In this document: positions 12,084 through 55,883 of the stretch, one piece after another
Layout of the letters: each line of letters starts with the position of its first letter
Numbering within the stretch: the first letter of the stretch is position 1
Assembly (NCBI GenBank): GCA_029570385.1
Contig: JAKPXD010000020.1
Coordinates: 1-64,000, forward strand
Length of the DNA stretch: 64,000 nt
From: a bacterium
Lineage (GTDB): Bacteria > Patescibacteriota > Patescibacteriia > Patescibacteriales > Patescibacteriaceae
Reading direction: 5' to 3'
Position numbers and translations under genes: made by a program
The notes under the pieces: generated by a model
The model's input: the letters and a program-made list of their open reading frames with translations, nothing else
What the model was told of the DNA's origin: nothing
The model's database searches: none

Positions 12084-12092
12084 AGTTACTTA

Positions 12093-24139: not shown

Positions 24140-24161
24140 AAAAACGCCAAATGGCGTTTTT
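24140..24161. terminator. Bidirectional intrinsic terminator
   Basis: Arms AAAAACGCC (24140-24148) and GGCGTTTTT (24153-24161) around a four-base loop. It closes the tRNA-Gly/tRNA-Thr transcript on the plus strand and the ftsB transcript on the minus strand, overlapping the last codon region of ftsB. Confidence 0.9.
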
Positions 24162-24594: not shown

Positions 24595-24596
24595 AG

Positions 24597-24667
24597 TCGG
24601 GCTATCCGGAATCGAACCGGAACTACATGCACCCCATGCACGCGTACTACCACTATACGATAGCCCG
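24597..24667 (-). tRNA. tRNA-Pro (anticodon GGG)
   Basis: On the minus strand, acceptor CGGGCTA pairs with TAGCCCG. The anticodon stem CGTGC/GCATG encloses ATGGGGT with anticodon GGG, and the T arm is TCCGG-TTCGATT-CCGGA. The discriminator is A, and CCA is not encoded. It lies between ndk and ftsB. A hairpin without a T run (24670-24689) separates it from ndk. Confidence 0.96.
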
Positions 24668-24693
24668 TTAAGCGGTTTTGAGGCCGCTTTCAA

Positions 24694-29352: not shown

Positions 29353-30030
29353 TTAAAAATTATTATTGATATTAATTTTTTCAACGTTATCAAGGGGTTG
29401 GTTAGCGGCGGTTTCTTGGTTATAGACATTGTAAAACATTTCAATTAAGCCCTGGGTGTCTAATTGAACGACATTAAGCCCCATGGATGATAAGCCGTTA
29501 ATAACGCTGACAATTCTTTCGGAAAGTTGTTTTTTTAAACGGATAAAGCGTTCTTCTTTGAGATTAATAACATCAATCGGCCGGAAAGCCTCAATGAGCG
29601 ATTGCCAAAACCCTTTGCGTTTGTCCGAAATTGGATTATAAGGAACAACGATATAAAAATGCTTGTTCATTATCTTGCCAAGACTAACTAACTGACTAAC
29701 ATAATCAATATATTGCAATGTTTGATTCTTTAATAATTCATTAGTTTGTTCATTGGCTTTTTTGCGCATTGACTCTAGGTAGTTGGCGATATTAAGTTCG
29801 CGTGATTGGACTACCACTTGGATAGGAAAATCAAGATTATTAAGAAAACTGACATAACCGCTAATAATTGCCTCTTGCTCATCTTCGCTTTTAAGGGCGA
29901 AATTAATGCTAGATACCATTAGGATGGCCCGTAACGTGCCGTCTTTCATAATAACGGTATCTTTTTTAATATCAGCTATCTTTAAATAGCGCTGAGTAGA
30001 AATTGGATTGTTTTTTTGCTGACTAGCCAT
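29353..30030 (-). CDS. TraC/VirB4 N-terminal-domain-like protein
   Basis: Soluble protein of 225 residues resembling the N-terminal part of TraC/VirB4 ATPases (KDTVIMKDGTLRAILMVSSINFALKSEDEQEAIISGY, here named in parts: KDGTLRAILMVSS, then SFLNNLDFPIQVVVQSRELN). No Walker motifs are present. It ends with QPLDNVEKININ. It sits between the PrgI gene and virB4, an order common in CPR and Firmicutes secretion loci. It may form a partner or regulatory subunit of the VirB4 motor. This is an inference from domain likeness and position. Confidence 0.72.
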   Translation of the reverse strand: MASQQKNNPISTQRYLKIADIKKDTVIMKDGTLRAILMVSSINFALKSEDEQEAIISGYVSFLNNLDFPIQVVVQSRELNIANYLESMRKKANEQTNELLKNQTLQYIDYVSQLVSLGKIMNKHFYIVVPYNPISDKRKGFWQSLIEAFRPIDVINLKEERFIRLKKQLSERIVSVINGLSSMGLNVVQLDTQGLIEMFYNVYNQETAANQPLDNVEKININNNF

Positions 30031-30032
30031 AA

Positions 30033-30491
30033 CTAAGGCTTAGTAATTAACTCATCAATCAATTCTGTCTCTCCGCCATAAGCACCGCGCGTATCAACAA
30101 TTAGTGATAACTCAGCTAAACGTGAAGAAGTAAAACGATTTTTAACAGCTGGCGGCTGTGCTTTAATAATATTTTTGCTATCAAATTGAGCTTCAGCTAA
30201 ATTCTTGCCAAAATTTTTATTCCAAAGACGTAGCCGCGGCATAAATAAACTCTGAATCAGATTAAGTAAAAAATAATGAAACGGTCGGCCGTTAATCTTG
30301 CCAAAAGCAAAAGTAAAAAATACACCGGCAGTTAATAGAGTGGCTACTAAAAACAGAGAGAAGTCAAACAGTTTATATTCTAAAAAAATTACCCCGGACA
30401 TGACTAATAGTATAATAAATTGCCGAGTGGTAATCGGACCGATAATTTTATCTTCGGCGTCAATAAATTGTGGGACAGTAAATTGTTGCAT
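30033..30491 (-). CDS. PrgI-family membrane protein (VirB3-like)
   Basis: Small inner-membrane component of Gram-positive-type type IV secretion systems. The 152 residues open with FTVPQFIDAEDKIIGPITTRQF, the recognisable PrgI start. Two membrane helices follow (FIILLVMSGVIFLEYKLF and FLVATLLTAGVFFTFAFG), then the NGRPFHYFLLNLIQS loop and a soluble tail. It starts two bases after the 433-residue protein gene ends and is directly followed by the TraC-N-like gene. Confidence 0.85.
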   Translation of the reverse strand: MQQFTVPQFIDAEDKIIGPITTRQFIILLVMSGVIFLEYKLFDFSLFLVATLLTAGVFFTFAFGKINGRPFHYFLLNLIQSLFMPRLRLWNKNFGKNLAEAQFDSKNIIKAQPPAVKNRFTSSRLAELSLIVDTRGAYGGETELIDELITKP

Positions 30492-32823: not shown

Positions 32824-35800
32824 TTATTGCTTAGGGGGCTGTTTAACTGCTTTTTCAATATTCTCAGCTCGGCGTCTATCATTTTTATCTTCGTTAAGAC
32901 CGCGAAAATAGCGATAGTCCTCCAATCTCTGTCTTTGTTTAATATCTTCGGACAATTTGTTTATTTTTTTTGGCTCTCTGCTGTTTTTATCAGCCCCGTC
33001 AAAATATTCGTCGTTATTATTGTCATTATTAGATTCATCACCTTCTTCTTGGTTGTTGTAGATCGTAGTATTATTAATTGTTGTTTGATTATTGATAACA
33101 GTTTCGCCGTTCTCTTTGGAAATAACTTGTTCAGCTTGACTAATCGGTTGAACACCACTAACGGCTTGATCGATGTCGGCGGCGGTTACTTGTTCTTGGG
33201 TAATATTTTTTTGTGCCATAATATCTTTGATATTTTGCGCTGCTGCTGCGACATCATCAACTCGATAAGAACCGCTAGCCATTTTTTGAGCAATGGCCTC
33301 GGTTAGATTTTCATTATCCAAGCCGAAACCATGTAGCGCTTCATGAATATTAGTAGTATGACTTTCACGAGCACTAGCTAAAGAAACGCCGGTATTTTTA
33401 AGACTTAAATTATCTAAATTAGCCGGATCGGCTAAACGTTCTTTAGCAACACGTAAATCACGAATTCTTGATAAAGGCTCTAGTTCTTCCATGGCTGAAC
33501 TAGCTTCATCTAGATTGCCATTTTGCAGAGCAGTTGATCGTTGATCGCGCAACTGACTAATCTTTTGTTCCAGGACATCAAGCGGTTCAGTCACCATAGC
33601 CGACCCAGCTTGTTCTAATGTAGCTAATTCATTATCAATTAAACCAGTTAACTCACTAGCGACTGCCGCCATTTTTTCCGGAGCAATATTAGCGCCAACC
33701 ACCTTACCTGTTTCAACGTCTGGGGTTAAATCACCAAGCGATTTCAACTGATCAAAGTCAACACCAATAATATTGGCTTTATGCATGCCGCTAGCAAAAG
33801 AATTAACTCTTAATGATCCATCACCTTGGCCGACAGCCGCATTTGGACCAACTTGGCGCATTTTAACGGCCTTTTTTAAATAATCATCGTATTGGTCTAC
33901 CTTTCCACCAGTTCCAGCAGCTTGACTATTTAAAGCTTTAATTAAAGGTTGCAATCGACTAACATCACCGCCATTAAATTCAAACCCGGCAATACCGCGT
34001 AACATTGATCTTATAATATTTTGATCTTTTTTCTCATTGGGGTTAGCTTGACCAACAGCGCCAACCAGATTATTTATGGCCGCAGTAGTTTCAGCTGGAT
34101 TTGATCTGTTAGTTAACTTCTCATAAAAATTTTTGTGTTTAGGGGTAATACCAGCTAAACCTCCCGAAAAATCACCAGCGGCAAGATCGTGGAATAAGGC
34201 GGCATGGTCAGTTCTTTGTGATATCTGCTTGACTCTTTCCTGAGCCGCATTACTATCTTTTAAATATAGGTCAGCTGCATCTGCTGATAATCGAAAAGGA
34301 TGATAATCTTCAATACCTTGACCAAGCTTTTTAAGTCCAGTGCCACCAGCCAACCAAGCAGTTAGTATTGGCAAATTAGCCTCGATATTTTTCCATGAGC
34401 CACCGCCAGCATAATCTTGTTTAGCTTTTAATAGAGCAGCTTGCTTCATTTCATTAGATAAACTGGGGTTACTATTTATTGCACGAACTTTGTCATCATA
34501 GTTTTGTTTTTCTTGGTCAGCTTTAGCTATTTTACCTTTTTGTCGCAAATTTCTTTGTCTTATATCTATAAATTCATCATACATCTGTTCAGTAGCGGCT
34601 GCCTTAGTAGATTTATAAGTTTCAACAGCTTTTCCGACTTTTCTTTTATAAATATCATCAGCCTTGTCCATGCCTTGTTGATAGCGATCTCTAGTGATTC
34701 TACCATTTCTAAACAATTCTTCAGTTCTCTTTTTTGAAGCGTCTCTAGCTTCAGCTGCTTTTAACCGCTCGCTTCCCATTGTGACCGCTGCGTTCTTAAT
34801 GGCTTTATGCCGCCTATCATATGCATCTTCATAGGCTGGCACTGTAGTGCCGCCAATCATTCTTTTAATACCGCCGCCAATCACTTTATTAAGAGGAGAT
34901 TGAGCAAGTCCAGCGGCAGTAGAGCCGCCAATCATTAATGCGCCCAGAAAAGGGTTGCCGGTAAGTATCCCGGCAGCTGTGCCGCCAGCCATGGTTAAGC
35001 CACCCTTAACAGTTTTACCGATTGTTTTAACAACGTCATCATTAGCAACCTCCTTAAAAGCAGCCATTGTTTTGTCGCCGACACCAAGTCCAAGTTTTTT
35101 TAGAGTCTTGAGACGTTTTTTAGTCTTTTCTTCTTTACGTTCTTTGGTTAATTCATCACCCCAAGTTTTGCCGGCGGTGCCCAATTTTTGAAACATTTGG
35201 CCAACTTTGCTATTACTATTTTTACTCATGGCATAAGTTAAGCCGCCAGCTCCCTTTAAAGCATTGCGGCCCGCCCATTTGGCTGTGGTGGTGGCCATTC
35301 CACCGGCTGTTTTTTTAACTTTATTGCCCATTTTCTTAAGATTGCTCATGCCGGCCCCGACAACGCCACCCACAAGAGAGCTGGTTTCTTTAGTCAACAT
35401 CATACCACCCCATAATAAACCGATGGACACTATAAACTTAATAATCGCTTGAGCTGTGCCAGATTTAGTTACCCCAGCATTAATATCATCCGTCAAATCA
35501 GAGCCTTGATTGGGATCAATCGCTTGGCCACTGCCACCAGTAAGTTTTATCTCATTGTCCTTATTTACTGAATTACTGACACCGCTGCCCGAAGCTGTAA
35601 AAAATGACAACCAAATAAAGAAAGCCAGCATCGGGCCAGTAATTACCAGTCCAGTAAAATCAGACCACCAGCGACGGCCGGCTTGGCCTAACTTACCTGC
35701 TTTGGGCAAAGCGGATAATAAATAAGGAAAAGGCGACAAAACAATATAAATCCATAACATGACGGCTCGCTGAATTAACATTATAGCCATTGTTAAAATA

Positions 35801-36453
35801 ACTACTAAAGCAACAATAATATATATTAGGGCCAGCAGATAACTAATAAAAACACCTAAACCCTCCAATGGTGCATCTGTGGCCTGGACACTATTATTAA
35901 CAACAACATCAAATAAAGCAGTTAACCCGAGCATCTCAGTTAAATTACCAGCACCGACATCCTTAAAACCGTTAACAAAAGTTAACATGATAATTTGGGC
36001 AAAATCCAAGATTAGGCCGCAGATAGTTTTGGAAAAATTAACAAAAATGGCACCAAGAATAAAACTACGCAATAAATTCTTAGCTTGGTAATTCTGCAAT
36101 CTTAAAACCGTGCCAAAAGCGATAATTAAAAGACCTAAGACAAAGAACATATTGCAGACATCGCGAACAACTTTCCACCCCTCAACCACTACCTGCTCAT
36201 TAATAAAATTATTATATTGGGCAACATAGACTAGAACATGCAAGACAACGGCTAATAACTTGCCAAAAAAAGATACCAAAATACTAATAATGCCGGTTAA
36301 TATTTTTAAAATGGCTGTCGTGATAATATCAAGGGCAAAAACAAAAATTGGAGTAAAAATTAGTAATAAAATTAAACCGGCAACAAAATATTTTTGTTTC
36401 GGACTAAGTTGGCCCCAGCTATTGCTAAAAAAAGTTTTTATTTTTCGCCACAT
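32824..36453 (-). CDS. VirB6/TrbL-like polytopic membrane protein with long cytoplasmic tail
   Basis: Large 1209-residue protein. The first 365 residues hold about seven membrane helices (YFVAGLILLLIFTPIFVFAL, VFFVLGLLIIAFGTVL-type, YLLALIYIIVALVVILTMAI and others), as in VirB6/TrbL channel proteins. A Gly/Lys-rich region and long charged helical stretches follow (about 370-760). The tail shows a zincin-like HEALH at residues 1037-1041 with a glutamate at 1052, and then an Asn-rich segment. The same locus encodes VirB4 and PrgI. The gene follows the 234-residue membrane protein by 19 bases. The channel role is from family likeness; a peptidase role for the tail is only a possibility. Confidence 0.78.
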   Translation of the reverse strand: MWRKIKTFFSNSWGQLSPKQKYFVAGLILLLIFTPIFVFALDIITTAILKILTGIISILVSFFGKLLAVVLHVLVYVAQYNNFINEQVVVEGWKVVRDVCNMFFVLGLLIIAFGTVLRLQNYQAKNLLRSFILGAIFVNFSKTICGLILDFAQIIMLTFVNGFKDVGAGNLTEMLGLTALFDVVVNNSVQATDAPLEGLGVFISYLLALIYIIVALVVILTMAIMLIQRAVMLWIYIVLSPFPYLLSALPKAGKLGQAGRRWWSDFTGLVITGPMLAFFIWLSFFTASGSGVSNSVNKDNEIKLTGGSGQAIDPNQGSDLTDDINAGVTKSGTAQAIIKFIVSIGLLWGGMMLTKETSSLVGGVVGAGMSNLKKMGNKVKKTAGGMATTTAKWAGRNALKGAGGLTYAMSKNSNSKVGQMFQKLGTAGKTWGDELTKERKEEKTKKRLKTLKKLGLGVGDKTMAAFKEVANDDVVKTIGKTVKGGLTMAGGTAAGILTGNPFLGALMIGGSTAAGLAQSPLNKVIGGGIKRMIGGTTVPAYEDAYDRRHKAIKNAAVTMGSERLKAAEARDASKKRTEELFRNGRITRDRYQQGMDKADDIYKRKVGKAVETYKSTKAAATEQMYDEFIDIRQRNLRQKGKIAKADQEKQNYDDKVRAINSNPSLSNEMKQAALLKAKQDYAGGGSWKNIEANLPILTAWLAGGTGLKKLGQGIEDYHPFRLSADAADLYLKDSNAAQERVKQISQRTDHAALFHDLAAGDFSGGLAGITPKHKNFYEKLTNRSNPAETTAAINNLVGAVGQANPNEKKDQNIIRSMLRGIAGFEFNGGDVSRLQPLIKALNSQAAGTGGKVDQYDDYLKKAVKMRQVGPNAAVGQGDGSLRVNSFASGMHKANIIGVDFDQLKSLGDLTPDVETGKVVGANIAPEKMAAVASELTGLIDNELATLEQAGSAMVTEPLDVLEQKISQLRDQRSTALQNGNLDEASSAMEELEPLSRIRDLRVAKERLADPANLDNLSLKNTGVSLASARESHTTNIHEALHGFGLDNENLTEAIAQKMASGSYRVDDVAAAAQNIKDIMAQKNITQEQVTAADIDQAVSGVQPISQAEQVISKENGETVINNQTTINNTTIYNNQEEGDESNNDNNNDEYFDGADKNSREPKKINKLSEDIKQRQRLEDYRYFRGLNEDKNDRRRAENIEKAVKQPPKQ

Positions 36454-36472: not shown

Positions 36473-37177
36473 CTAAAGTAGGCCATCTAGCGCGCCACCA
36501 AATAAATCCCAAAGAATTTTCATATTTTCTATGGGATTGGTCATAACATTGATAATAAAAATTAAAAAAGATAAGACGGCTAAAATAATAAGAAAAATTA
36601 ATAAATCTAGGGTTAATAGTCCGGCGACCTCTAGCCAGCCAATAGCTTTTTTAAAAATTCCGGGAGCTTTCCATTCCTCGCCTAATTTACAAAAAAATTT
36701 ATGCCCTTCAATAAAACCAACCCAGGCCTGCAAATTTAGAGGGATTATTGTTAGGCCATATGAGTTTATTAGTTGGGTCCACCAAGTTTTTAAAAATTCA
36801 CCAGTGAGCATTTTACCGCCATTACCCTTTTTAATAGCATCAATTGCCATTTCGCCAGCCACAGCGGCGGCACCGGCTACGGTTGGATTAGCTGCCAATT
36901 TAGCTAATTGTTGTGCTTGTTTAAGTGAATCGGCAGTGTCTTGGGTGGCTGTCTCCTTACGGCTAGTCTGGTTAGATTCGGTTGAATTTTGGTCTTGATT
37001 ATTAGAATTCTGACGAGACATTAATCGATCATTAATCCTGGAAGAATCAATTACTTGAGCACTTATTCTTTGGTTATTAGCCTGCTGGCTAGCCTCAGCT
37101 TTTTGTTGACGTAAAATTTCTCCATTATAATAAGGAGAAGAATATTGATCTTGCAGATTAACAGCTGCTTCAGCCAT
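36473..37177 (-). CDS. Membrane protein of unknown function heading the secretion operon
   Basis: Not recognised. The 234 residues start with a polar Gln/Asn/Ser-rich region (1-95). A hydrophobic Ala-rich segment follows (LAANPTVAGAAAVAGEMAIDA), then amphipathic stretches (WWTQLINSYGLTIIPLNLQ). One long or two short membrane helices lie at about 180-215 (AGLLTLDLLIFLIILAVLSF). It is the first gene after a good promoter and is followed by the VirB6-like gene, so it is likely part of the secretion apparatus. No motif indicates its role. Confidence 0.55.
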   Translation of the reverse strand: MAEAAVNLQDQYSSPYYNGEILRQQKAEASQQANNQRISAQVIDSSRINDRLMSRQNSNNQDQNSTESNQTSRKETATQDTADSLKQAQQLAKLAANPTVAGAAAVAGEMAIDAIKKGNGGKMLTGEFLKTWWTQLINSYGLTIIPLNLQAWVGFIEGHKFFCKLGEEWKAPGIFKKAIGWLEVAGLLTLDLLIFLIILAVLSFLIFIINVMTNPIENMKILWDLFGGALDGLL

Positions 37178-37296: not shown

Positions 37297-40200
37297 CTAA
37301 TTCGTTTGGCTGGGTTTAATTCTAAACGAGAAACTTGATGTTGCGCCCCAGTTATCAGTCAAAATAATGGTAGCATTATTGGTCTGGCATTCATTGCCAG
37401 CAGCTGCCTGACAAGAATAGCGATGAGTAAACTGGTGAGGAGCAGATATGTCGGTGCGATCAAGAAAATTACCTCGACGATCATAGGGTGTTGTACCATC
37501 GCCCCAATCAATCTGAATTTGTTTAAGCGGTCGCTGATTGGCATCAACACGACTGTTGAAAGTTAAATTCACACTAACTACTGGCTTATTAAAGGCTACT
37601 AGGCCACCAGTCGCTATTGGCATCTCATTAATTTGAACATTTTCAATAATGGGTTTGACTAAACAATAAGAATTAGCGCTATTACCAGTTGGTCGAACAT
37701 TATTTGGACAAGCATTGGTTGGCGTGGTCCAAGTAAAAGCATCGGAACTATTAGCTACATAGCGACCGCTATCAGCAAAATAATCATGACCATTGACGCC
37801 TTTACCATTATCAAATTGCCACTCAAAACCGCCATAAGCCTGAGCAAATAAATAACGCGGGTGAGCAGAATTATTGGTGCTAATGCTAAATATTTTACCG
37901 ATATGGACACCCTCAGCTAAATCTTGGTAAAAAAGCGGCTGATTACCGGGTAATGTTGCTACGGTCATGCTATCCCAATTTTCGGGGCTACCGCCCTGAT
38001 TGGCCGGATAACCGATAGAAGCGAATGGCACTGATGATTGATTAAATAAACAGTCCGCTGAATTAAAGCCAGCACTGGTTGGGCTCGGGATATAACACGG
38101 CATAATAAAGGAACTGCCGTCTTTAACCCGATCCGACCAATAAGCATTATTGCCGCTATCGTCAACTACTTTAACAAATTTAGTACAGTAAACCGGCGCC
38201 TTTGATGGAGTGCTGGTATTAGAAACAACTACACCAAATTGATCACGATAAACTTCGCTCGTTAAATATGGATCGCCCCCAGTTAGACCTAGAAAAAAGT
38301 CTTTAATGGTTGAGCTACTCATGTCAGATATTGAGACTCCCTTGTTCCAATAAGCGGCTAAATCGTTTTCGGTTTTTAGGTGCCAACCATCATTAACACT
38401 GGTGACATTCTCTTTAATATTATGCCAATCGGCATTATGTACATAACAAGTTGTTGATGTCCCATGGTTTGCATATGTTGAGTTAAAACAATTACGATAG
38501 CAATTAGTTGTAAAATAAAGCGTGGTTGAAGAAATATCTGTACAATTTTGAAGAGTACGTTTTAAAATGTTGGTGGTATTATTATCTGATATTATTGGCG
38601 ATCCATCTGGAATGCAGTAACATCTTTCTATTTCGGTTAGATCGGCAACACAACCATCATCCTTATAATTTCCTTCTATTTCTATATTTGTATAGCCAGT
38701 TGGGCAATCGTGATGTTCCCAACCTCTATCGCCATCGCCTTCATCAGTAGTACCGTCTTCACAGTGCGCATCACTACAATCACCACCACCATTATAAAAG
38801 GCGTGTCGATATTCCAGCTCTAGACTATTAGCCGCTTCTAAACAATAATATAGCGGCCGTTTACCATTATAACCAATCCCCTCTTCAATCGGATCGGCAG
38901 CGATTTTATCTAACGGATACCACAGTAGACAATTTCTTTCATTGGCCGGATCATATTCCAAACAATAGCCCATTAAGCCCTTTTTGCGGATGACCGAGTT
39001 GCCGCTAGATTTATAGTCGCAGGACAAGCTATTACCCTCCGGATAAAGCCGGCAGGTTGGAGCAATAAATTGATTATTAGCGCCATCTGTGCGATAGGCC
39101 AAGCTGGGCTTTAGCTGGATATTATCAAAATAAGCAACACCATTTTCAGTATAAGCGTCGAGTTCAAGCTGGATATATTTAGTGTCTTTTTTAGTAGTAA
39201 ACGACAAAACTTTATTTAACCATTTGCCATTAGTATTAGCAATAGTCATAGTATTGGTGATATTGCTAGCTAAACCTTGCGGTCGGCAGGGGTTATTTTC
39301 AGTGGGATTTTGACAAGTATATTCCCAAACCTTAAAGCCAGCGTGGCTATTATTAATAGTTCTCACCACTCCCGACATACTATAATTTGTATCACTATCT
39401 ACTTTTATTAAATTGGTGGGGCTTGTCTTGATATAGCCATAAAAACCATTATTGCCTTGCAGCTTAGTGGTTAGCCGCAAGAAATTATTACCATCCGGCG
39501 CTAAATAATTATTACTAAAACTTGCATCAATGTTAATCGCCTGCTGTGGGCTGACAATCAGCTTGGATAAAGTAGAATTCGTCCAGTTATTGGCGTCGTA
39601 GTTATAAACTAGTTGTTGACCATCACCAGTCAGCGATCCGGTGGCAAATTCAAAACTACCATTAATATCTTGCTCAATATTTTTACCAAACTCGGTCATA
39701 GCCGCCAGATGATAGAAATCGTTATAGTAGCCGGTAGAATTAACGCCAACTTTACTATAGCCAGTTAAATTACTAATCTGGTCAGTATTTAGATTATTGC
39801 CAAATGTTTGGTTGGTCGGAGTAGTTGGCAAATCAACAAAATGAGCGCAGTTATTGTAAGCATCTAAACTATCACATAGGCCAAAAGAAGTACAAATTTT
39901 CTTGATACTGCCGTCATTGGCCTGAACCGAATTGTAAGTCGTACATTCTAACCATTTACCGCAAGTTCTTGAAGGCTTAACCTTGATTAAACGATTGGCA
40001 TTATTGCTACCGTCTAATGCTTTTGGACTAACACCATTGGCATCATTAGCACTCAAATTAGTATTATATAACAAGGTAGAATACTTATTTTGTTGATAGT
40101 TGCGTTCATTGAATAATAGACAGCCTTGATCATAATTGGTTTTGCCATCAGTGCACTCGGAACTGCTCAAATCTTTATTCAGTTGATAACTAACAATGGC

Positions 40201-43200
40201 CGGGCGAACTGAAATATCTTTAACTTTAGCAGCCGATGAGGTGGAAATATTAATTGTTAGATTGGTAGCACCATTAGTCATAAACATAGTATTGGCGTAA
40301 TAGCCATTGCCGGAAACATTACTGGTATTTTCACTATACTGATTGACTAATAAATTTTGGTCACTAGAGGTAGCAATTAACTTGTTCTGTCCATTCATTA
40401 GCCAGAAGCTGCTACCTAATCGCCAATTAATTGCTTCATTCTCAATTGGCTGATCGGCCTTAACTTGTAAAATATAACTAGTAAAAGCATCCAATGGTAT
40501 GGTTTGATTAAAGGCGGTACTGGCCGCTGGCTGGCCAGTTATAATATTGCCATTGATTCTAGATAATGGATCAATGTATTCCGTGCAGCCGGATTGAGTG
40601 GCCGGACAGAGACCAACCCAGTTTTGTCCCTGATTATCTACTCGCGGCTGACGAACAATGTCGCCACCAAGACCAATAGTTTTACCAACGCTATTATTAA
40701 CCGGACAAGCGACTAAATTTTGGCTAACCAGACACTGGCTGGTTGAGCTAATACTTGAACAATCTTGATTATCGTTACAAAATTTAAAACTAGCGGTTTG
40801 ACTACAACTCTTCACCGGTCGTTTATACCAACCAAAATTAGTGCCATCTTCTCCGGCTCGCCATTCGCACAATTGATCGCCAGGATCTTTAAAGAAATTT
40901 AAACCACTAGTATCGCCAACCAAGGTTTGACAACCAACATCGTCCACGGAGCAACTTATTGGATTAGTGGCGTCTGAACGATAACGATCCGGATCAACCT
41001 TTAGATAGGTAGCCTGATAAATGGCTTGATCTTGGTAAACAGTTTCCTTGCCTAACCTTTGACAGCCCTTGTTAGTAGCCGAACATAACTTATTCTGGTC
41101 ATAAACGGCATAGATAATCTCATCAGCCGGGGTGATATCAGCATCAACATCACCATTAATCGGCTGAAAAGGATAATAGTAATTGGTATAATTATTGGTA
41201 TTTAACATAGCTTCACAACCAACAGCTGATTCTTGGCAAAGATCAGTAAAGCCATGTAAATAATGAGTATTGCCGTTGTTGTCTTGATACTGTTGACAAC
41301 CTAACATAAAACCGGCAGCCGGAGAACCATTATAATCTTGATTGCAAGCTTTAGGAATAGTAATACTATTCTCCAATAAATAATGCTCATCATTAATCTC
41401 TATCAAACGAACCTCATCCAGATAAAAACGATTATTGGCCAGCAACCGAAGTCGGTAATCGGTTATTTCTGCCTCAACTATACTAACGGCTGGAACATCT
41501 AGGCTATAGCTATAAAATTGCCAATCGTTATTTTTTAGATTTATACCAGTTGCCGGCAGATCAAAATTGGCGATATCGGCTGAACCATTTTTAAGACTAA
41601 TACTAGTGATGGTAGTTTCGGCGGATAAGGGTTTAGCAAAGAACTGCAAACGATACTTAGCGCCATTATTTAAACTATGGGGATCAAGATTAATGTCAAT
41701 CTGATTGCTATTAGATAATAATGAATATCCAGTAGTTCTAATGGTTTCCGATGATGTGGCCGCCCCATGCCAATCACTGGTTAATTCATTATCAAAATCT
41801 CGATTTAAAACTAGTCGCCAATCAGCTGCTCCAGTTCCGCTGTAGCGCTTACAGGTGTTTTGATTGGCCGCGCAAGATTGACTCTCGGCCGGCAAGCCGC
41901 GATAAATACAAGCCTGATTATTATCGCTCCATTGTCCATTACCCCGACAAACAACACATTCTGCTTTTGAGCTTAACCAGTGACCACCTTCTTCATTTTG
42001 ACAGCTGATGGCGTCGGCAATATTATCAACAACATTATGTTTTGATAGCCGGTAGCTTAAACAATTGGCGCTACAAGTAACAGTCTTAGAATAAGGCACA
42101 TAAAAAACTGCACCGGCTTGATTACGAACCTCACGACAATCAGGATTATAGTTGACAGAATTGGGTTGGATTGATGAAGCAGTGCATTGTTGGCTTTGAT
42201 CGGTCAATTTGGGGGAACCATTGGTCTCGGCTTGCCAAGTATAAGAATAAAGCTGCAGACCAGTACTGGCCGTGTTTTGCCAAATATAGAATTCAGCACA
42301 ATTAGCCTGTGGTTCATCTGGCTTGACGCATTGTCTGAGATAGCTAAAATATTCTTTATCTTCACCGCCAGCGGCTAAATTGTCTAAATTGGTAAATTCA
42401 GTGCAGCCGACGCTAGCAGCCGAACAGGTAGTAGCTAAATTGGGAATTAATTGTTTTTCCTGACCATCATTAAATATGGTCGGTTCTTGCCAATATGAAG
42501 CAAAGCCGACGCAAGAGGCTGGACAATAATTCTGTAAATTAATTTTAGCCGGTATTCTGTCACCGGTCAGATTATTAGTAAACATCTGACAATCGGCTTC
42601 ATCTGGAAGACAAGTTCGAGCATAATTATCGCATTCAGCTGGAGCATCCGGCCGTTCAATTAGACTGTCCCCATTCTGAACATAACAAACAGTTCGTAAA
42701 TATTCCGGTAATATTTTTTCATAAGTATAAGCGGCTTGACGATAGGGGCGATAACCTTGATTGCCTTGGCTGGAAATCTCCAGCATCATATTATCAATAT
42801 AGAAATTGCCCGGTTCTTCTGAATAGATAGCTATTGCGTTAGCATTATAATACTCATCGTTATTGATAGTTACAGTAAGTTTTTGCCAACGGTCGGTTTG
42901 GTTGCTCGTTTTAGTCAGCCAAGAATCACTATTAATAGCTGGATTACCATTGCCAATACCAATGGTTACTGGTGTTTGTTCAGTATAAACATAGGCACTA
43001 AAAGTATAGCTAACGCCAGGGCGTAGCAAAAAGTTTTTAGGCAGGCTACTTTGAGACGGCTGACTCCAATCATATGACCAGAAGCCACTATACGGGGTCT
43101 CGCTGATGATTTTTAGGGCATTTTGACCGGAATAAACTTGGTCGCTACTGCTAACCACAACAGCTGAGCCAGCAATAATTAGATTATCTAAACGATTATT

Positions 43201-45606
43201 AGATGATGTGGCGCCGGCATGGCTAAACTCCAGATCACCATTAAAGAGCAGATTAACATTAGTGTTGTTAGCCAACCTGATTAATTGTTGGCAACCATCT
43301 TGATTTTGATCGCAGGTTTCGGCTTTAGCCGATAAATAATATTTATCAGTGGTATTGCCCGGAGTGCAGGTAAATGATGAGCTAGCCCAGTTATAACGTG
43401 AGCAATAAGCAGCACAGCCACTATTATCAGCATTACAATTGCCATAATCCAAAGTATTAGCTAAATAAGCAGTCGTCTGCCCAGAACTATTAGTATAGGC
43501 TTGACAGGTATTGAAGTATGGTTGGCAAGTATCTGATGTAAATTGCCATGTTCGGCGATCTTCAGTACAATAGCCATAAATCTCACAATTATTATTATCG
43601 CCTTCTTTCAAACAACTTTGCTCATCAGCGCAGTAATTACTTGATCGCAAAAGATTAACCGTGCTTAAGCTAGCGGCCACCGTTCCTGTCGCGACTTGGT
43701 CGCTGGTTAAAATATCCATGTAATCAATCTGATTACCGAAACCGGATTTAATACAATAACTAAGGGGAGCTTTAAGCGGCCAATTGGGGTCAATCATTCC
43801 TCGACACCAACTCTGGTTATAACCAGTATCATATTGATCGAGTGGATTATAACAACCGATCATATCGCCAATGGTTATATCCTTTTCTTTAATGTCAAAA
43901 GAAGCTAATTTTTCCGCCGCTACCTCCCAAGTAACCGGTAAAATTCGATACTTGCGCAAAATTTTCATAGAGCGCCAGCTGATATCGCCAGACTCTATGT
44001 TGAGAGAATTGTCAGATTCAGCTGCACCAAAACGTGCATTACCATTTAATAAACCTTTTTTCAAAGCCTCGCCAACCGTCAATTCCTGGCTAATGGCTTG
44101 AACAAAATTATTATTCACTACACAATTCATTGGCCCAGGATTATTAGCATCAGGGCAGGTAGCCAGATTATTTAATAGGTCAAGATCGTTCCCCGCTCCA
44201 AAATTCATGTCAGTTATCGGGGCTAACAATGCCTCTGATTCGGCTCGACCAAAACTATTGGAAGAATAAAAGTTACTTAATTTTTCAGTCACCTTGGAAT
44301 CATCCTGACCAGCCAATAATTCTAATAGCTTGGCCATGTACTTGTCATACAGCTTATTACTTAAGACTGAAATAAATAAATTGGTGCTATCCAATAATAT
44401 ATCGCCTGTCTGCGAAAAAAAGGTTTCTCTTTTCCTGGCTTCGGTATCCCAAAGCTTTATATCTAATGATCCTGGTAACTCTAAATATTTGCCGCCAGGG
44501 TTAGTTATTCTATTTTGTTCCCTATTAGCTCTTCGCTCTGACTGACCAAGGTCAGTTGAAGTGCTCACCATGGTATCTTGCCGTGAGCTTATTGAGAAAG
44601 CAATGCCAAGATCATTAACTCGTGGATCAAAAATACTTTGAACATTTTTTAAATAAGTCTTCTGATCATTGATTGATTGCTGAATAGCAGTTGCCCAAGA
44701 ACTAGTTGCTCCATCTTTGCCAATTCCGTAAAAAGCATCCCGAGCATTACATAGATTTTCAGTAGGATTGGGGGCAGCGCCAGTTAGACCTAAACCAATC
44801 TTAAAGCCGACCATTATGCTGGATGGTTGACAGACATCAAAATCGCTACCAAGGTATTTTTTTAAACTAAACCCGCTGTTATCACCAGCACGAGCGACAT
44901 CCTTATGGAGCTTACGAAGATTCAAGGAAGCATCATTAACGTCATTTAAACAAGTTATGGCAATTGCCGGATCAGCTATCTCACTATTAATAGCATTTTG
45001 GATTTCTACAATTGTATTATAAATATCTCCATCGTCAATTTGATAAGTAATGTCGTTTTCTGTTATAACATCATTTTCATCATACCAAGCTGAATTAGTT
45101 ATTGTTGCTGTTAATACCAAATGAACAGTTTTAGTACCACAAGAAACATCCTGTGTTTTTGTGCCGGTTTTAGTTGAACCTTCCTCTAGGGCGGTAAAAT
45201 AATTTTCCACAAATGTTCCGGCAGCATTTCTGGCTAAATCAGTAGCAAATGTTGACCAAGTATAGGTATAAAATTCAGCTTTTTGCCCCTTGCCACCACT
45301 AGCCACATAGAGTGCTGTTTGATTGGCAAATTCATTAGCGTATTTTCGCAATAGAGAGCTATATGTCCTGGTAGTCGCCTTCTTAAAAGCTGCCCACATT
45401 TGGTTTGTAATATAACTACTAATCTTATCGGCTGTTCTATCCAGCCAAGAAGTAGTATCAGTAACCGGCGCACCGGCAACTGGAGGCGATATAACCGGTG
45501 GGGGTGTCATCGTATCAGCCTCTTGCGCTTTAGTATAACTGTTTACACCAAACAATAAATAAACTAATACTAAACCGCCCCAAAACAAACGAAAAGACAT
45601 TTTCAT
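37297..45606 (-). CDS. Giant secreted cysteine-rich protein with carbohydrate-binding-like domains
   Basis: Predicted surface protein of 2769 residues; no overall family recognised. A signal peptide is present (LFWGGLVLVYLLFGVNSYTKAQEA). Residues 40-600 are helical and polar. From about 620 to 2350 the protein is rich in cysteine with a recurring C-x5-G-C unit (CNADNSGC, CDQNQDGC, CSAASVGC, CQESAVGC, CSATNKGC, CSVDDVGC, CPATQSGC), each followed by a beta-rich stretch. At least three jelly-roll/CBM-like domains are interleaved (about 780-940 with LLFNGDLEFSHAG, 1260-1410 with LVLNRDFDNELTSDW, 2020-2160). The end (about 2680-2769) has a PKD-like IQIDWGDGTTPYDRRG. It could be a host- or cell-attachment protein. 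It is preceded by the thrombospondin type 3-like anchor gene. Confidence 0.72.
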   Translation of the reverse strand: MKMSFRLFWGGLVLVYLLFGVNSYTKAQEADTMTPPPVISPPVAGAPVTDTTSWLDRTADKISSYITNQMWAAFKKATTRTYSSLLRKYANEFANQTALYVASGGKGQKAEFYTYTWSTFATDLARNAAGTFVENYFTALEEGSTKTGTKTQDVSCGTKTVHLVLTATITNSAWYDENDVITENDITYQIDDGDIYNTIVEIQNAINSEIADPAIAITCLNDVNDASLNLRKLHKDVARAGDNSGFSLKKYLGSDFDVCQPSSIMVGFKIGLGLTGAAPNPTENLCNARDAFYGIGKDGATSSWATAIQQSINDQKTYLKNVQSIFDPRVNDLGIAFSISSRQDTMVSTSTDLGQSERRANREQNRITNPGGKYLELPGSLDIKLWDTEARKRETFFSQTGDILLDSTNLFISVLSNKLYDKYMAKLLELLAGQDDSKVTEKLSNFYSSNSFGRAESEALLAPITDMNFGAGNDLDLLNNLATCPDANNPGPMNCVVNNNFVQAISQELTVGEALKKGLLNGNARFGAAESDNSLNIESGDISWRSMKILRKYRILPVTWEVAAEKLASFDIKEKDITIGDMIGCYNPLDQYDTGYNQSWCRGMIDPNWPLKAPLSYCIKSGFGNQIDYMDILTSDQVATGTVAASLSTVNLLRSSNYCADEQSCLKEGDNNNCEIYGYCTEDRRTWQFTSDTCQPYFNTCQAYTNSSGQTTAYLANTLDYGNCNADNSGCAAYCSRYNWASSSFTCTPGNTTDKYYLSAKAETCDQNQDGCQQLIRLANNTNVNLLFNGDLEFSHAGATSSNNRLDNLIIAGSAVVVSSSDQVYSGQNALKIISETPYSGFWSYDWSQPSQSSLPKNFLLRPGVSYTFSAYVYTEQTPVTIGIGNGNPAINSDSWLTKTSNQTDRWQKLTVTINNDEYYNANAIAIYSEEPGNFYIDNMMLEISSQGNQGYRPYRQAAYTYEKILPEYLRTVCYVQNGDSLIERPDAPAECDNYARTCLPDEADCQMFTNNLTGDRIPAKINLQNYCPASCVGFASYWQEPTIFNDGQEKQLIPNLATTCSAASVGCTEFTNLDNLAAGGEDKEYFSYLRQCVKPDEPQANCAEFYIWQNTASTGLQLYSYTWQAETNGSPKLTDQSQQCTASSIQPNSVNYNPDCREVRNQAGAVFYVPYSKTVTCSANCLSYRLSKHNVVDNIADAISCQNEEGGHWLSSKAECVVCRGNGQWSDNNQACIYRGLPAESQSCAANQNTCKRYSGTGAADWRLVLNRDFDNELTSDWHGAATSSETIRTTGYSLLSNSNQIDINLDPHSLNNGAKYRLQFFAKPLSAETTITSISLKNGSADIANFDLPATGINLKNNDWQFYSYSLDVPAVSIVEAEITDYRLRLLANNRFYLDEVRLIEINDEHYLLENSITIPKACNQDYNGSPAAGFMLGCQQYQDNNGNTHYLHGFTDLCQESAVGCEAMLNTNNYTNYYYPFQPINGDVDADITPADEIIYAVYDQNKLCSATNKGCQRLGKETVYQDQAIYQATYLKVDPDRYRSDATNPISCSVDDVGCQTLVGDTSGLNFFKDPGDQLCEWRAGEDGTNFGWYKRPVKSCSQTASFKFCNDNQDCSSISSTSQCLVSQNLVACPVNNSVGKTIGLGGDIVRQPRVDNQGQNWVGLCPATQSGCTEYIDPLSRINGNIITGQPAASTAFNQTIPLDAFTSYILQVKADQPIENEAINWRLGSSFWLMNGQNKLIATSSDQNLLVNQYSENTSNVSGNGYYANTMFMTNGATNLTINISTSSAAKVKDISVRPAIVSYQLNKDLSSSECTDGKTNYDQGCLLFNERNYQQNKYSTLLYNTNLSANDANGVSPKALDGSNNANRLIKVKPSRTCGKWLECTTYNSVQANDGSIKKICTSFGLCDSLDAYNNCAHFVDLPTTPTNQTFGNNLNTDQISNLTGYSKVGVNSTGYYNDFYHLAAMTEFGKNIEQDINGSFEFATGSLTGDGQQLVYNYDANNWTNSTLSKLIVSPQQAINIDASFSNNYLAPDGNNFLRLTTKLQGNNGFYGYIKTSPTNLIKVDSDTNYSMSGVVRTINNSHAGFKVWEYTCQNPTENNPCRPQGLASNITNTMTIANTNGKWLNKVLSFTTKKDTKYIQLELDAYTENGVAYFDNIQLKPSLAYRTDGANNQFIAPTCRLYPEGNSLSCDYKSSGNSVIRKKGLMGYCLEYDPANERNCLLWYPLDKIAADPIEEGIGYNGKRPLYYCLEAANSLELEYRHAFYNGGGDCSDAHCEDGTTDEGDGDRGWEHHDCPTGYTNIEIEGNYKDDGCVADLTEIERCYCIPDGSPIISDNNTTNILKRTLQNCTDISSTTLYFTTNCYRNCFNSTYANHGTSTTCYVHNADWHNIKENVTSVNDGWHLKTENDLAAYWNKGVSISDMSSSTIKDFFLGLTGGDPYLTSEVYRDQFGVVVSNTSTPSKAPVYCTKFVKVVDDSGNNAYWSDRVKDGSSFIMPCYIPSPTSAGFNSADCLFNQSSVPFASIGYPANQGGSPENWDSMTVATLPGNQPLFYQDLAEGVHIGKIFSISTNNSAHPRYLFAQAYGGFEWQFDNGKGVNGHDYFADSGRYVANSSDAFTWTTPTNACPNNVRPTGNSANSYCLVKPIIENVQINEMPIATGGLVAFNKPVVSVNLTFNSRVDANQRPLKQIQIDWGDGTTPYDRRGNFLDRTDISAPHQFTHRYSCQAAAGNECQTNNATIILTDNWGATSSFSFRIKPSQTN

Positions 45607-45609
45607 AAG

Positions 45610-46290
45610 CTATTGTTTAAGAGCTTCCTGATAAGCTTCCAGTAATTCCTGGTCGCTAAATTGATCTAACATTGTTTTATCCATACCTGATTCTAAGAGA
45701 ACCTGTCTTAAACTAGTAGCATCAGACGGCAATGCGGTGGCTGCCAAACTAGAAGACCCAGTAACGCTATTACCAATTGGCGAATCGATGGTGGTACCAA
45801 TATTAACTGCATCGGAACCGGTTGGGGTCGCCACCGGGTTGACTAAAATTGACCCGCTACAATCCTTGCCAATCGGACAATTAGGGTCTTGACCGCGTTC
45901 AATTTCTACCTTATCCAAAACGCCATCACTATCACTGTCCTCTAAAAATGGCGAAGTATTATAAAGATTTAACTCATCATAATCACTTAAACCGTCTTTA
46001 TCAGTATCGGCTAATTTAAGAGCCTCATCTTGTTGAGCCAGCTGCTCAGCCGTTTTGCCTTTAAAGGCGGTTTCAATTTCTTTGTTATTAGTAAATCCCA
46101 TTTGTCGATAGAGTGGTGCGGTTATGTTTTGTTTAAATTGCAAAAACCACATTACCACAATAGCTACCGACATGGTGCTAAGTCCAGCTAGTGCCCAATT
46201 TTTTTGCCGTTGAGCTCGGCGGCTGGCTTTCCACATCGCAAATTCTTCCGGGGACATTGGTTGTTGATTGTCCGGATTGATATGGGTCAT
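45610..46290 (-). CDS. Membrane-anchored protein with thrombospondin type 3-like repeats
   Basis: Bitopic protein of 226 residues with unknown role. A Lys/Arg/Gln-rich cytoplasmic N-terminus is followed by one helix (WALAGLSTMSVAIVVMWFLQF). The outer part contains two Asp-rich calcium-type repeats (LADTDKDGLSDYDELNLYNT and EDSDSDGVLDKVEIERGQDP). A Ser/Thr/Val-rich stretch follows, and the end is helical (LLESGMDKTMLDQFSDQELLEAY). It is transcribed immediately before the giant 2769-residue protein with a three-base gap. The other giant protein also has a neighbour of this type, so a shared anchoring or assembly role is plausible. Confidence 0.75.
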   Translation of the reverse strand: MTHINPDNQQPMSPEEFAMWKASRRAQRQKNWALAGLSTMSVAIVVMWFLQFKQNITAPLYRQMGFTNNKEIETAFKGKTAEQLAQQDEALKLADTDKDGLSDYDELNLYNTSPFLEDSDSDGVLDKVEIERGQDPNCPIGKDCSGSILVNPVATPTGSDAVNIGTTIDSPIGNSVTGSSSLAATALPSDATSLRQVLLESGMDKTMLDQFSDQELLEAYQEALKQ

Positions 46291-50574: not shown

Positions 50575-51387
50575 ATGAAAAAAAATTATAAAAGCAAACC
50601 ATTACCAATAACGGAGGGGTCGTCCGGCTGGCAAAATCGCTTTAATGCGCTATTAAGATCCAGCGGCCGTCGGCCAAGACGCTGGTATCGCCGTTGGTGG
50701 GGTATAATAATTTTAATTATAGCCGCTCTATTTAGCTTATTCGTAGCTGTTTATCTTTACAAGGTTGTTATCCTGGTTTGGCAGTTAAAAACCGGCCGAA
50801 TAACCGCCGCGGAATTAATGTTGCAACAAAGCAATCCAGGATTGAACACTAAAGAAATGATTGCTCTGACTAAAGGGCCGGCTCCATATTATTTGGGGAC
50901 ATCCAGTCCCAAGGTGCTAATTGTTGAATATGGCGATTTTAATTGCTCACATTGTCGAGTGGTCTCGCCAGAAATTCGCAAAGCCGTCAACCAAAATAAA
51001 GATATTGTTCAATATATCTGGCGCGATTGGCCAGGCCAAGACAATTCAGAATTACTGGCTCAGGCCGCTCGTTGCGCTGGCGAACAAGCTGGCAGTCTCG
51101 GCTTCTGGCTATTTCATGATCAGCTTTTACTCAATCAAAGTCAATTTACCACTACCAGTCAACTAATGGAATTAGCGGAAGAATACAGTCTTTCACCTAC
51201 CAGATTGCAAGATTGTATTGAACAACAGCGCACTCTGGGTTATTTACAAAAAGACTATCAAGACGCTATCGCTTTGGGCGGTATCGGCGGCACTCCAACC
51301 TGGTTTATTAATGGTTATCGTTTTAGCGGCGAATTACCGGCTGATTTTTTTAATTATATGATTAAAGAATTAACCAAGGAAAAATAA
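50575..51387 (+). CDS. DsbA-like thioredoxin-fold disulfide oxidoreductase
   Basis: Membrane-anchored thiol oxidoreductase or isomerase of 270 residues. A basic cytoplasmic tail leads to one helix near residues 43-62 (GIIILIIAALFSLFVAVYLY). The thioredoxin-fold domain has the active site GDFNCSHCRVVSPEI, with cysteines at 124 and 127. The DsbA helical insert lies at about 150-225, and the cis-Pro loop is GGTPTWFINGYRF. The family introduces or repairs disulfides in exported proteins. Its stop overlaps the porG start (TAATG), so it heads the por/pilin operon, which encodes several cysteine-rich exported proteins that would need such an enzyme. Confidence 0.9.
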   Translation: MKKNYKSKPLPITEGSSGWQNRFNALLRSSGRRPRRWYRRWWGIIILIIAALFSLFVAVYLYKVVILVWQLKTGRITAAELMLQQSNPGLNTKEMIALTKGPAPYYLGTSSPKVLIVEYGDFNCSHCRVVSPEIRKAVNQNKDIVQYIWRDWPGQDNSELLAQAARCAGEQAGSLGFWLFHDQLLLNQSQFTTTSQLMELAEEYSLSPTRLQDCIEQQRTLGYLQKDYQDAIALGGIGGTPTWFINGYRFSGELPADFFNYMIKELTKEK

Positions 51388-51947: not shown

Positions 51948-53119
51948 AACCAATAACTAGCAATGATAGCGCCGGACAATTAACCTTTCTGAAAGGTTCT
52001 GAGGCTATTGCCAAAATGGTGGCTCTTTGTCAGCCTGGAGTAGTGGCTGCCTACCCGATTACCCCACAGACCGGAATTATTGAACAGCTAGTCAAATTAT
52101 CAGCCAGCGGTCAAGCTGATTTTTCTTTTGTCCAAGCTGAGAGCGAATATTCAGCCCTATCAATCGCCTTAGGCGCCGCTGCCATGGGTGTGGCTGCCTA
52201 CACGGCCACCAGCTCGCAAGGACTGCTGTATATGACTGAGGTTATTTATAATTTAGCCGGTTTGCGCTTGCCACTAGTTATGACCTGTGCCAATCGTTCA
52301 ATTTCGGCACCAATCAATATCTGGAATGATCACCAAGACGCCATGGCGGTGCGCGAAGCCGGCTGGCTAATGTTCTTTGCTGAAGATAATCAAGAAGCGA
52401 TTGAACAACATTGGTTGGCTTTTGCCCTAAGTCAAAAATTAAGATTACCGGTCATGGTTAATGTTGACGGCTTCCGCCTAACCCACGCCAGTGAACCGGT
52501 GGCTTTACCAAATAAACAATTAGTTAAAAAACTATTAAATAATAAGATAAAAGCTGTTTTAAATACTAAAAAACCACAAACTACCGGTTGGTTTGCTATG
52601 CCAACTGAATATCAACAACAAAGACTGGAGTTAAGGCGAGTTATTGCCAATAGTTGGCCAATTATTAAGAATACCAACCAGCAATTTAATAATCTGTGGC
52701 AACCAATAAAAACAAAACTGCTCGGACGCAATAATCATAGTAGCGATCCGGCAGTTGAATATTATGGTCCGGCTCAAGCTAAACTAGTTATTGTAGCGAT
52801 GGGCTCAATCATTGGTGAGCTCAAGGACTTAGCTGATAAGGCTAATAAACAAAAACCGGGTTCAGTGGCAATTTTAAAGATTAAATTATACCGTCCATTC
52901 CCTGAGAAAGTTATTGAGCGCTATTTAAATCAAGCCGAACAAATCATAGTAATTGACCGCTCGCCCGGACTTGGAGCTCAGCCGCCGCTATTTAGCGATA
53001 TTATGACAATCAAACCATTAAATAAAAACAATATTTCCAGCCAAATCATCGGTTTGGGCGGTGATATTGATTTAATCAAAATAAACAAAACAATTAAAAA
53101 TATATGGGCAATTGTCTAG
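51944..53119 (+). CDS. porA: 2-oxoacid:ferredoxin oxidoreductase, alpha subunit
   Basis: Alpha subunit of the oxidoreductase, 391 residues. It has the typical N-terminal GSEAIAKMVALCQPGVVAAYPITPQT. The TPP-enzyme partner segment is FVQAESEYSALSIALGAAAMG with YTATSSQGLLYMTE. IWNDHQDAMAVREAGWLMF and the C-terminal KLYRPFPEKVIERYL with VIDRSPGLGAQPPLF follow. The gene overlaps porG by four bases. Its last 16 bases overlap the first pilin-like gene, and a decayed copy of its 3' end lies 1.4 kb downstream. porB comes only after two pilin-like genes. Confidence 0.94.
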   Translation: MKPITSNDSAGQLTFLKGSEAIAKMVALCQPGVVAAYPITPQTGIIEQLVKLSASGQADFSFVQAESEYSALSIALGAAAMGVAAYTATSSQGLLYMTEVIYNLAGLRLPLVMTCANRSISAPINIWNDHQDAMAVREAGWLMFFAEDNQEAIEQHWLAFALSQKLRLPVMVNVDGFRLTHASEPVALPNKQLVKKLLNNKIKAVLNTKKPQTTGWFAMPTEYQQQRLELRRVIANSWPIIKNTNQQFNNLWQPIKTKLLGRNNHSSDPAVEYYGPAQAKLVIVAMGSIIGELKDLADKANKQKPGSVAILKIKLYRPFPEKVIERYLNQAEQIIVIDRSPGLGAQPPLFSDIMTIKPLNKNNISSQIIGLGGDIDLIKINKTIKNIWAIV

Positions 53120-54435: not shown

Positions 54436-54486
54436 ATAATGCTATGTCAAATCACTACATCGCTAATAGCTATATCTATGATAATT

Positions 54487-54574
54487 AAACAGTTTAATAA
54501 AACAATATTTCCAGCCAAATTATCGGCTTGAGCGATGATATTGATTTAATAATGATTAATAAAATCATTAAAAA
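54487..54574 (+). pseudogene. Decayed duplicate of the porA 3' end
   Basis: This stretch between the two pilin-like genes matches the last 90 or so bases of porA (53012-53103). About four-fifths of the bases are identical by eye, including CAATATTTCCAGCCAAAT and GATGATATTGATTTAAT blocks. One base is missing in an A run. Past that deletion the frame still reads a porA-like IIGL-DDIDL peptide. It is the scar of a tandem duplication that took the porA tail together with the pilin-like gene. Confidence 0.88.
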
Positions 54575-55879: not shown

Positions 55880-55883
55880 TAAA

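Follow-up and report, generated by a model that had tools for sequence, protein, structure and literature searches.

A giant cysteine-rich exported protein encoded with type IV secretion genes in a class of Patescibacteria

The window analysed here, a 64,000-nucleotide stretch (positions 1 to 64,000) of contig JAKPXD010000020.1 from a patescibacterium, carries on its minus strand (37297..45606) an intact open reading frame (ORF) with an ATG start for a giant exported protein of 2769 amino acids (aa) containing 88 cysteines. This protein, hereafter the giant, is encoded with genes of a type IV secretion system (T4SS). In the class of this organism, which we take to be ABY1, the giant consists of an N-terminal domain (N-domain) followed by about 2000 residues of cysteine modules alternating with jelly rolls of the carbohydrate-binding module (CBM) type, and its N-domain recurs in a shorter protein that occupies the equivalent T4SS slot in other classes. 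We marginally favour the view that the giant is a contact head of the T4SS on the cell surface, clamped by disulfides and able to bind glycans; linkage and homology carry this view, and surface location, glycan binding and docking are its putative parts. A sequence-only reading of the same DNA had drawn attention to a recurring C-x5-G-C unit, to CBM-like jelly rolls and to a surface task that must be important, plausibly attachment to another cell. The unit and the jelly rolls hold up, conservation across the class argues for an important exported function, and attachment may be part of it; that reading overlooked the T4SS operon, a partner with a TSP3-type repeat, short relatives of the N-domain and the paired loss of cysteines.

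Cysteine unit and domain architecture

Exactly seven copies of C-x5-G-C are present in the giant, all within residues 724–1674 and, like all features of the giant given below, on the minus strand. They lie at residues 724–731 (43414..43437; exact in 74 of 74 aligned sequences), 765–772 (43291..43314; 69/74), 1061–1068 (42403..42426; 72/74), 1457–1464 (41215..41238; 73/74), 1508–1515 (41062..41085; 71/74), 1552–1559 (40930..40953; 58/74) and 1667–1674 (40585..40608; 56/74). These are the copies that had been picked out from the sequence, although the positions given then were off by up to 4 bases. A chance motif was rejected on the basis of shuffling and conservation: in 5000 composition shuffles of the giant the motif occurred 0.19 times on average and at most three times. 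The alignment comprises the window protein and 73 homologues; of 141 homologue loci 80 were kept, and seven of these were dropped (three sequences with unknown bases, four under 1600 aa). Among the 62 near-full-length sequences in it, the median is nine units per protein (range 6 to 11), against 0.32 in shuffles.

The earlier count of ‘at least seven’ is right for exact copies and falls short of the conserved pattern, which comprises ten C-x6-C sites (residues 694, 724, 765, 999, 1061, 1245, 1457, 1508, 1552 and 1667) with both cysteines at 100% (rounded) in the 74 sequences. Nine of the ten sites have the exact C-x5-G-C form in 56 to 74 of the 74 sequences each. Sites 694, 999 and 1245 lack the glycine in the window protein; two of them have it in most relatives (69/74 and 65/74), and site 694 in none (0/74). 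The hydrophobic or aromatic residue said to follow each unit is also real, except that it is the third residue after the second cysteine: Y, L, F, M, L, L and Y in the seven window units, and one of Y/F/L/M/W/V/I in 515 of 527 units of the homologues. Judged from the alignment, the unit is better written C-x5-G-C-x2-[YFLMW]. In the predicted structure, a three-residue helical turn is found at nine of the ten sites (not at 724), followed by a strand at eight of those nine (not at 1667, where confidence is low), and we read the unit as a probable structural clamp.

Cysteines stand out from the rest of the protein. Among columns covered by at least half of the sequences, 62 of 76 cysteine columns are at least 95% conserved, compared with 102 of 2087 columns for other residues. 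Where cysteines do vary, they tend to vanish together: C2504–C2519 in 42 of 42 losses, C1103–C1178 in 8 of 8, C1818–C1829 in 5 of 5, and C735–C747 with 50 shared losses out of 50 and 55. As the sequences are related, the losses counted cannot be treated as independent, and little can be read into other pairs that share a single loss. Because variable cysteine pairs disappear jointly and cysteines are conserved far above other residues, we infer that the giant contains disulfides, which are likewise kept as a pattern and lost in pairs. A candidate disulfide oxidase is encoded about 5 kb upstream of the giant on the opposite strand (50575..51387, plus strand), namely, a DsbA-like thioredoxin with an N-terminal hydrophobic segment and a CSHC motif (PF13462 1e-19, PF01323 5.1e-12). 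The DsbA-like family is present in 60 of 61 relatives; where the upstream flank reaches 7 kb or more, its gene lies upstream of the giant in 29 of 44 loci; downstream it occurs in 0 of 37. VKOR, a partner oxidase in many bacteria, was not found in the genome of the window organism.

The only hydrophobic stretch in the whole giant (19-residue Kyte–Doolittle window above 1.6) begins at residue 3 and belongs to a signal peptide of about residues 1–27 (45526..45606; cleavage site estimated by eye); hydropathy along the whole protein reveals no membrane anchor beyond this leader, and homologues have hydrophobic leaders as well. The N-domain (residues ~28–450, 44257..45525), mostly helical in a low-confidence model (pLDDT 68.7), contains the near-invariant cysteines 259 and 286 and, at residues ~150–250, an insert absent from most homologues. 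It is followed by cysteine module M1 (residues 545–785, 43252..43974; sites 694, 724, 765), jelly roll 1 (782–946, 42769..43263), module M2 (956–1262, 41821..42741; sites 999, 1061, 1245), jelly roll 2 (1259–1406, 41389..41832) and module M3 (1410–1695, 40522..41379; sites 1457, 1508, 1552, 1667). In residues 1690–2275 (38782..40539), jelly-roll-like stretches, recognized by hhalign and by Pfam in homologues, alternate with cysteine modules (1810–1960 and 2160–2275), the latter of which is among the best conserved parts of the giant. The C-terminal region (2440–2769, 37300..38289) has a WGDG-type motif that, in our view, resembles PKD; the suspected domain was rejected, as no Pfam PKD was found in 40 homologues, one of which has PA14. 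Conservation extends over most of the length of the giant, and the cysteine modules are more conserved than the jelly rolls. M1 resembles M2, and M2 resembles M3, over 68–75 columns (hhalign probabilities of 88.3 and 90.6, respectively, each from a single pairwise comparison with no database as background), implying that the C-x5-G-C unit belongs to a repeated module.

The jelly rolls between the units were confirmed both by sequence profile and by fold. CBM_4_9 (PF02018) exceeds its curated cut-off in the giant (36.8 bits versus 25.9; whole-protein E-value 6.1e-9; Pfam match at residues 785–915) and reaches 40.4 bits for residues 545–1700 alone; it is also found in the region corresponding to residues 1690–2769 in 5 of 40 homologues scanned. 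In the model of residues 545–1700 (pLDDT 83.4, 69 sequences), jelly roll 1, which is CBM_4_9/CBM22/CBM16-like, matches 8xmz_A (VIA Z 15.1, root-mean-square deviation (rmsd) 2.5, 135 residues aligned), and the CBM22-like jelly roll 2 matches 4xuo_A (VIA Z 14.1, rmsd 3.2, 134 aligned) and, by hmmsearch against PDB, 4d0q_A (5.9e-6). A further stretch at ~1955–2168 (B4) is akin to both (hhalign 94.6 to jelly roll 1, 91.5 to jelly roll 2). Carbohydrate binding by these domains is putative, as read from the fold match. For the cysteine modules, the statement that they correspond to nothing nameable is borne out: Pfam, NCBIfam and PHROG scans of the giant returned CBM_4_9 alone and no family over these modules, and the PDB hmmsearch yielded nothing beyond domains of the CBM type and a handful of jelly rolls from toxins. 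A profile search for a known family, named beforehand as the test of the sequence-only reading, accordingly assigned the jelly rolls and nothing else. Foldseek with residues 545–1700 retrieved Reelin, CBM, binary-toxin, Vip and Cry entries as well as phage proteins, many of them tail proteins; TM-scores, taken over the whole model, were about 0.1. Since VIA matches fall mainly on model residues 237–403, fold comparison barely covers the cysteine modules, which may yet have a known fold; profile searches set them apart as what appears to be an unnamed family, in part new.

Type IV secretion locus and N-domain relatives

By its gene content, the operon around the giant is a Patescibacteria T4SS. 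Downstream of the giant, and on the same strand, follow p234 (36473..37177), a membrane protein with two C-terminal hydrophobic segments by hydropathy; a VirB6-like polytopic membrane protein with about nine hydrophobic segments (32824..36453), named by topology and position (NCBIfam NF046089 0.0016, weak); p339; p433; PrgI, which is VirB3-like (30033..30491; PF12666 2.9e-9); a TrsD-like protein resembling the VirB4 N-terminus (29353..30030; NCBIfam TrsD 1.7e-8, below cut-off); the VirB4 ATPase (27458..29344; P-loop_TraG 5.3e-26, NF045971 VirB4-like 6.2e-104, above cut-off); p208; a ComF-like protein, so called from a phosphoribosyltransferase match; and a metallo-beta-lactamase. Proximity of comF to T4SS genes has been described for class ABY1 (PMC12102498). 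Upstream, p226 (45610..46290, minus strand) ends 3 bases before the giant starts and has one transmembrane helix (at 32) and a TSP3-type repeat (TSP3_bac E 7.7e-5, below cut-off), a repeat of the calcium-binding type; KsgA and LeuRS, recognized by Pfam, are also encoded upstream.

The core of the giant (residues 545–1700) is present in 133 of 143 genomes of the class, arguing, as had been supposed, for an important exported function; the window genome has one copy. In a draw of 380 genomes from the phylum, the core was found in 34 genomes of the class, and 11 other genomes matching profile A2 were rejected as carriers because they do so over CBM stretches only. Profile A2 was built from 68 of 71 relatives, A3 from 66 of 71 and A5 from 39 of 61; for A1, 20 of 21 giants were used, the remaining one being partial. 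Named homologues include Ca. Falkowbacteria, Uhrbacteria, Kerfeldbacteria and Komeilibacteria, all presumably members of ABY1; NCBI puts Falkowbacteria in the Parcubacteria group. VirB4 is found in 135 of 143 genomes of the class and in 136 of 143 drawn from the phylum, so co-occurrence of the giant and VirB4, both nearly universal in the class, is uninformative. The regions of relatives show the same T4SS arrangement: of 40 loci with a flank of at least 4.5 kb, 36 have a VirB6-like gene downstream of the giant; p234 is downstream in 25 of 40, VirB4 inside the flank in 13 of 28, and p226 and KsgA upstream in 58 and 52 of 62 loci, respectively. Among 114 of the 143 genomes in which both places were among the matches listed, the giant and VirB4 are found on the same contig in 65, in 63 of which no more than 40 kb separates them (median 14.8 kb).

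The N-domain connects the giant to other classes. A profile of the giant N-terminus finds five proteins in 20 VirB4 loci from outside the class (E 9e-11, 1.6e-8, 1.3e-5, 1e-4 and 4e-4). With these five added, the resulting profile A4 matches 39 of 285 phylum genomes: 26 belong to the class (frames of 2359–3841 aa in 25; G346 has a frame of just 99 aa), and 13 do not (frames of 287–1114 aa); in most of the genomes searched it has no match, the N-domain being either diverged or absent there. Of the outside matches, eight had not been used in A4; their E-values are 6e-22 to 6e-19 for three, 9e-15 for one and a weak 4e-7 to 5e-5 for the other four. These short relatives, proteins of 280–1112 aa, share only the N-domain with the giant, and cysteines 259 and 286 are nearly invariant in the joint alignment. 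In all 13 genomes, the gene is close to a VirB6-like gene, beside it in ten and one gene away in three (L168, L218 and L224), which suggests that the ancestral context was a T4SS. Consistently, the giant seems to be the enlarged form, specific to the class, of a component associated with the T4SS. In the non-class genome G216, two neighbouring proteins of 1054 and 1112 aa with 34 and 20 cysteines (L224:8576-11737 and 11754-15089) occupy the slot 5' of the VirB6-like gene and have no Pfam match; this cysteine-rich enlargement may be a separate one, in which case enlargement occurred more than once.

Possible roles of the giant

The favoured contact-head reading can be laid out as a series of steps in an organism that is ultra-small and probably host-dependent. 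The giant would be exported by Sec through its Sec-type leader and oxidized by the DsbA-like enzyme; the N-domain and the TSP3-type partner p226 would hold it at the surface, at the VirB6 complex; a rigid rod of disulfide-clamped modules would display the putative glycan-binding domains; and these domains might dock the secretion machine to a putative host cell. The docking role is our best guess. A bolder reading, somewhat less likely than not, is that the T4SS of Patescibacteria has an unrecognized exported subunit outside VirB1–11, encoded just 5' of VirB6, and that in this class a new disulfide module has enlarged this subunit, to as many as 3800 residues, into a receptor-binding head; recognition of the host would then be built into the machine. 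TraN, the cysteine-rich mating-pair stabilization adhesin of F-type T4SSs, is similar in being an exported cysteine-rich contact protein encoded in a T4SS locus, whereas the giant has no PF06986 match, belongs to a monoderm setting, is several times larger and contains CBM-type domains. CBM_4_9 modules share the jelly-roll fold and, for two domains, the sequence profile; unlike in CBM_4_9 proteins, the jelly rolls of the giant are just spacers between cysteine modules, with no catalytic domain attached.

A number of observations weigh against this reading. No VirB6-like match lies downstream of the giant in 4 of 40 loci. The giant and VirB4 are on different contigs in 49 of 114 genomes, through fragmentation or real separation, and two same-contig genomes have them 528 kb (G473) and 724 kb apart. 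The downstream side was taken for eight genomes: in six of them (G130, G142, G225, G262 and G363, which form one family, and G447) no VirB6-like gene was found in the 10–12 kb that follow the giant, and VirB4 lies either on a different contig or at a distance of 724 kb; in G534 the stretch is almost all giant and too short to judge; and in G047 the whole operon is present with inserted genes. In at least one lineage, therefore, the giant is unlinked from VirB6 and VirB4 and stays with p226 alone, so that permanent membership in the T4SS is not proven. Its most constant neighbour is p226, not VirB6. The low-confidence model of the N-domain gave no Foldseek match under E 0.7 and a best VIA Z of 5.0; PF07996 (VirB5) matched in 0 of 10 genomes at E 1, with none of 14 controls over the cut-off either, and PF06986 (F_T4SS_TraN) in 0 of 21 genomes at E 1, with a positive E. 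coli control. Calling the N-domain VirB5-like is a guess from its place beside VirB6. As for the other parts, a CBM-type fold does not itself demonstrate sugar binding, the linkage of the DsbA-like gene may be carried only by the LeuRS–KsgA block, and VKOR is found in just 2 of 61 relatives.

Several of these points would suit a stand-alone surface adhesin or coat protein, anchored by p226 and merely residing in the T4SS locus without being part of secretion, an explanation that we consider rather unlikely. Besides the greater constancy of p226 noted above, p226 stays directly upstream of the giant in three loci of the family with the broken VirB6/VirB4 link (profile E 9.9e-29 to 3.5e-44), and distances between giants follow those of KsgA (r 0.86) at least as well as those of VirB6 (r 0.80; VirB6–KsgA 0.74; n = 29), as would fit vertical descent; median identities are 33% for the giants, 27% for VirB6-like proteins and 47% for KsgA. 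There are also precedents among Patescibacteria: the large, exported, cysteine-rich proteins of Ca. Peribacter were proposed to serve in attachment, although no T4SS link is given within PMC4736985, and the giant, by contrast, is one conserved gene. Surface adhesins of the PrgB type are likewise encoded with a T4SS, of the Gram-positive type, but CBM_4_9 is the sole Pfam match of the giant; a survey of Patescibacteria T4SSs, as far as its account goes, reports no PrgB-like adhesin near virB4 (PMC12102498). What a bystander does not explain is that the N-domain relatives of all 13 non-class genomes sit beside or one gene from VirB6 and that nearly all same-contig giants lie close to VirB4.

An improbable alternative is that the giant forms a casing of the secretion channel, a sheath or cap across the cell wall and surface layer that replaces the outer-membrane core (VirB7/9/10) these bacteria lack, with the jelly rolls binding the cell's own polysaccharide. 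Outer-core genes are reported to be nearly absent near virB4 in Patescibacteria (PMC12102498), and the heavy disulfide stabilization suggested by cysteine conservation and paired losses would suit such a structure; yet, other classes manage with the short version of the protein. CagY of the Helicobacter pylori Cag T4SS provides a parallel: repeats rich in disulfide-forming cysteines have expanded this T4SS component to about 2000 aa (PMC10706595). CagY differs in its VirB10 domain, its span of a diderm envelope and its usual C-x2-C spacing, and no CBM-type domains are described for it within the same account; the giant, in turn, has an unnamed root domain without a VirB10 match, a C-x5-G-C unit and a cysteine pattern that is conserved rather than polymorphic. 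Finally, it is very improbable that the giant is an effector or enzyme passed through the T4SS into a host, as its place in the locus and the substrate genes generally known from T4SS clusters of other bacteria might suggest, given its Sec-type leader, its single copy in the window genome, its conservation over most of its length and the lack of a catalytic domain in Pfam, NCBIfam or PHROGs.

Giant surface proteins are known from Vampirococcus (PMC8080830), and the ABY1 member P. danicum has FhaB-type giants that are found in few genomes (PMC11809585). Our literature search found no T4SS-linked giant of the present kind, and the account of adhesins, outer-core genes and comF in PMC12102498 describes none. 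What is new, in part, is the unnamed cysteine module and the class-wide giant enlargement of a T4SS-neighbour protein. The T4SS occurs across the phylum and is essential where tested, namely, for epibiotic growth of the Saccharibacterium Southlakia (PMC10633639, PMC12857230), and the giant is a conserved candidate for contact between the T4SS and the host. As the N-domain can be defined and occurs in a small form elsewhere, cultivated relatives whose loci carry it would allow a test by deleting the gene, and structure determination has a good target in the cysteine module with its ten conserved C-x6-C sites.

Other genes and variant loci

Two T4SS-pilin-type proteins of 443 and 434 aa are encoded on the plus strand at 53104-54435 and 54575-55879 (PF18895 1.5e-4, below cut-off, and 3.5e-10, above it), followed by an M15/VanY peptidase with a weak pilin match (56738-57952, plus strand; PF18895 0.0066, below cut-off). 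A TPP-enzyme gene is interleaved in this region (53104..57952), and genes for POR-type oxidoreductase subunits lie alongside. In the ~430-aa proteins at 53104-55879, the pilin-type domain is near the N-terminus.

Relatives carry inserted genes between the giant and VirB6 or farther downstream; the ten that were scanned show no relationship to one another. In two loci (L034:9706-10974 and L035:9084-10340), a gene between the giant and the VirB6-like gene encodes a beta-propeller-type protein whose C-terminus is of the Por_Secre_tail type, which is odd for a monoderm. In loci L164, L165 and L166 (G142, G225 and G363), p226 and the giant (frames of 3525–3841 aa) are jointly gone from the VirB6/VirB4 locus. 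In G458 the giant is divided between two neighbouring ORFs, 1953 and 1444 aa long, and both begin with a hydrophobic leader (L167:3519-13716); the same contig has, about 44 kb away, another set of matches in mirror image, possibly an assembly duplication. A 26,141-aa frame in one relative was rejected as a product of masked bases.

In G518 and G442 (L162:1441-5307 and L163:817-4695), and likely also in G495, VirB4, the signature ATPase of T4SSs, is interrupted in frame near its P-loop by an intein that includes a LAGLIDADG domain (Intein_splicing PF14890, LAGLIDADG_3 PF14528). In the window, a tRNA-Pro gene on the minus strand (24596-24667) overlaps a TTG-start ORF on the same strand (24160-24693), and tRNA-Gly and tRNA-Thr genes are located on the plus strand just before this region at 24 kb.

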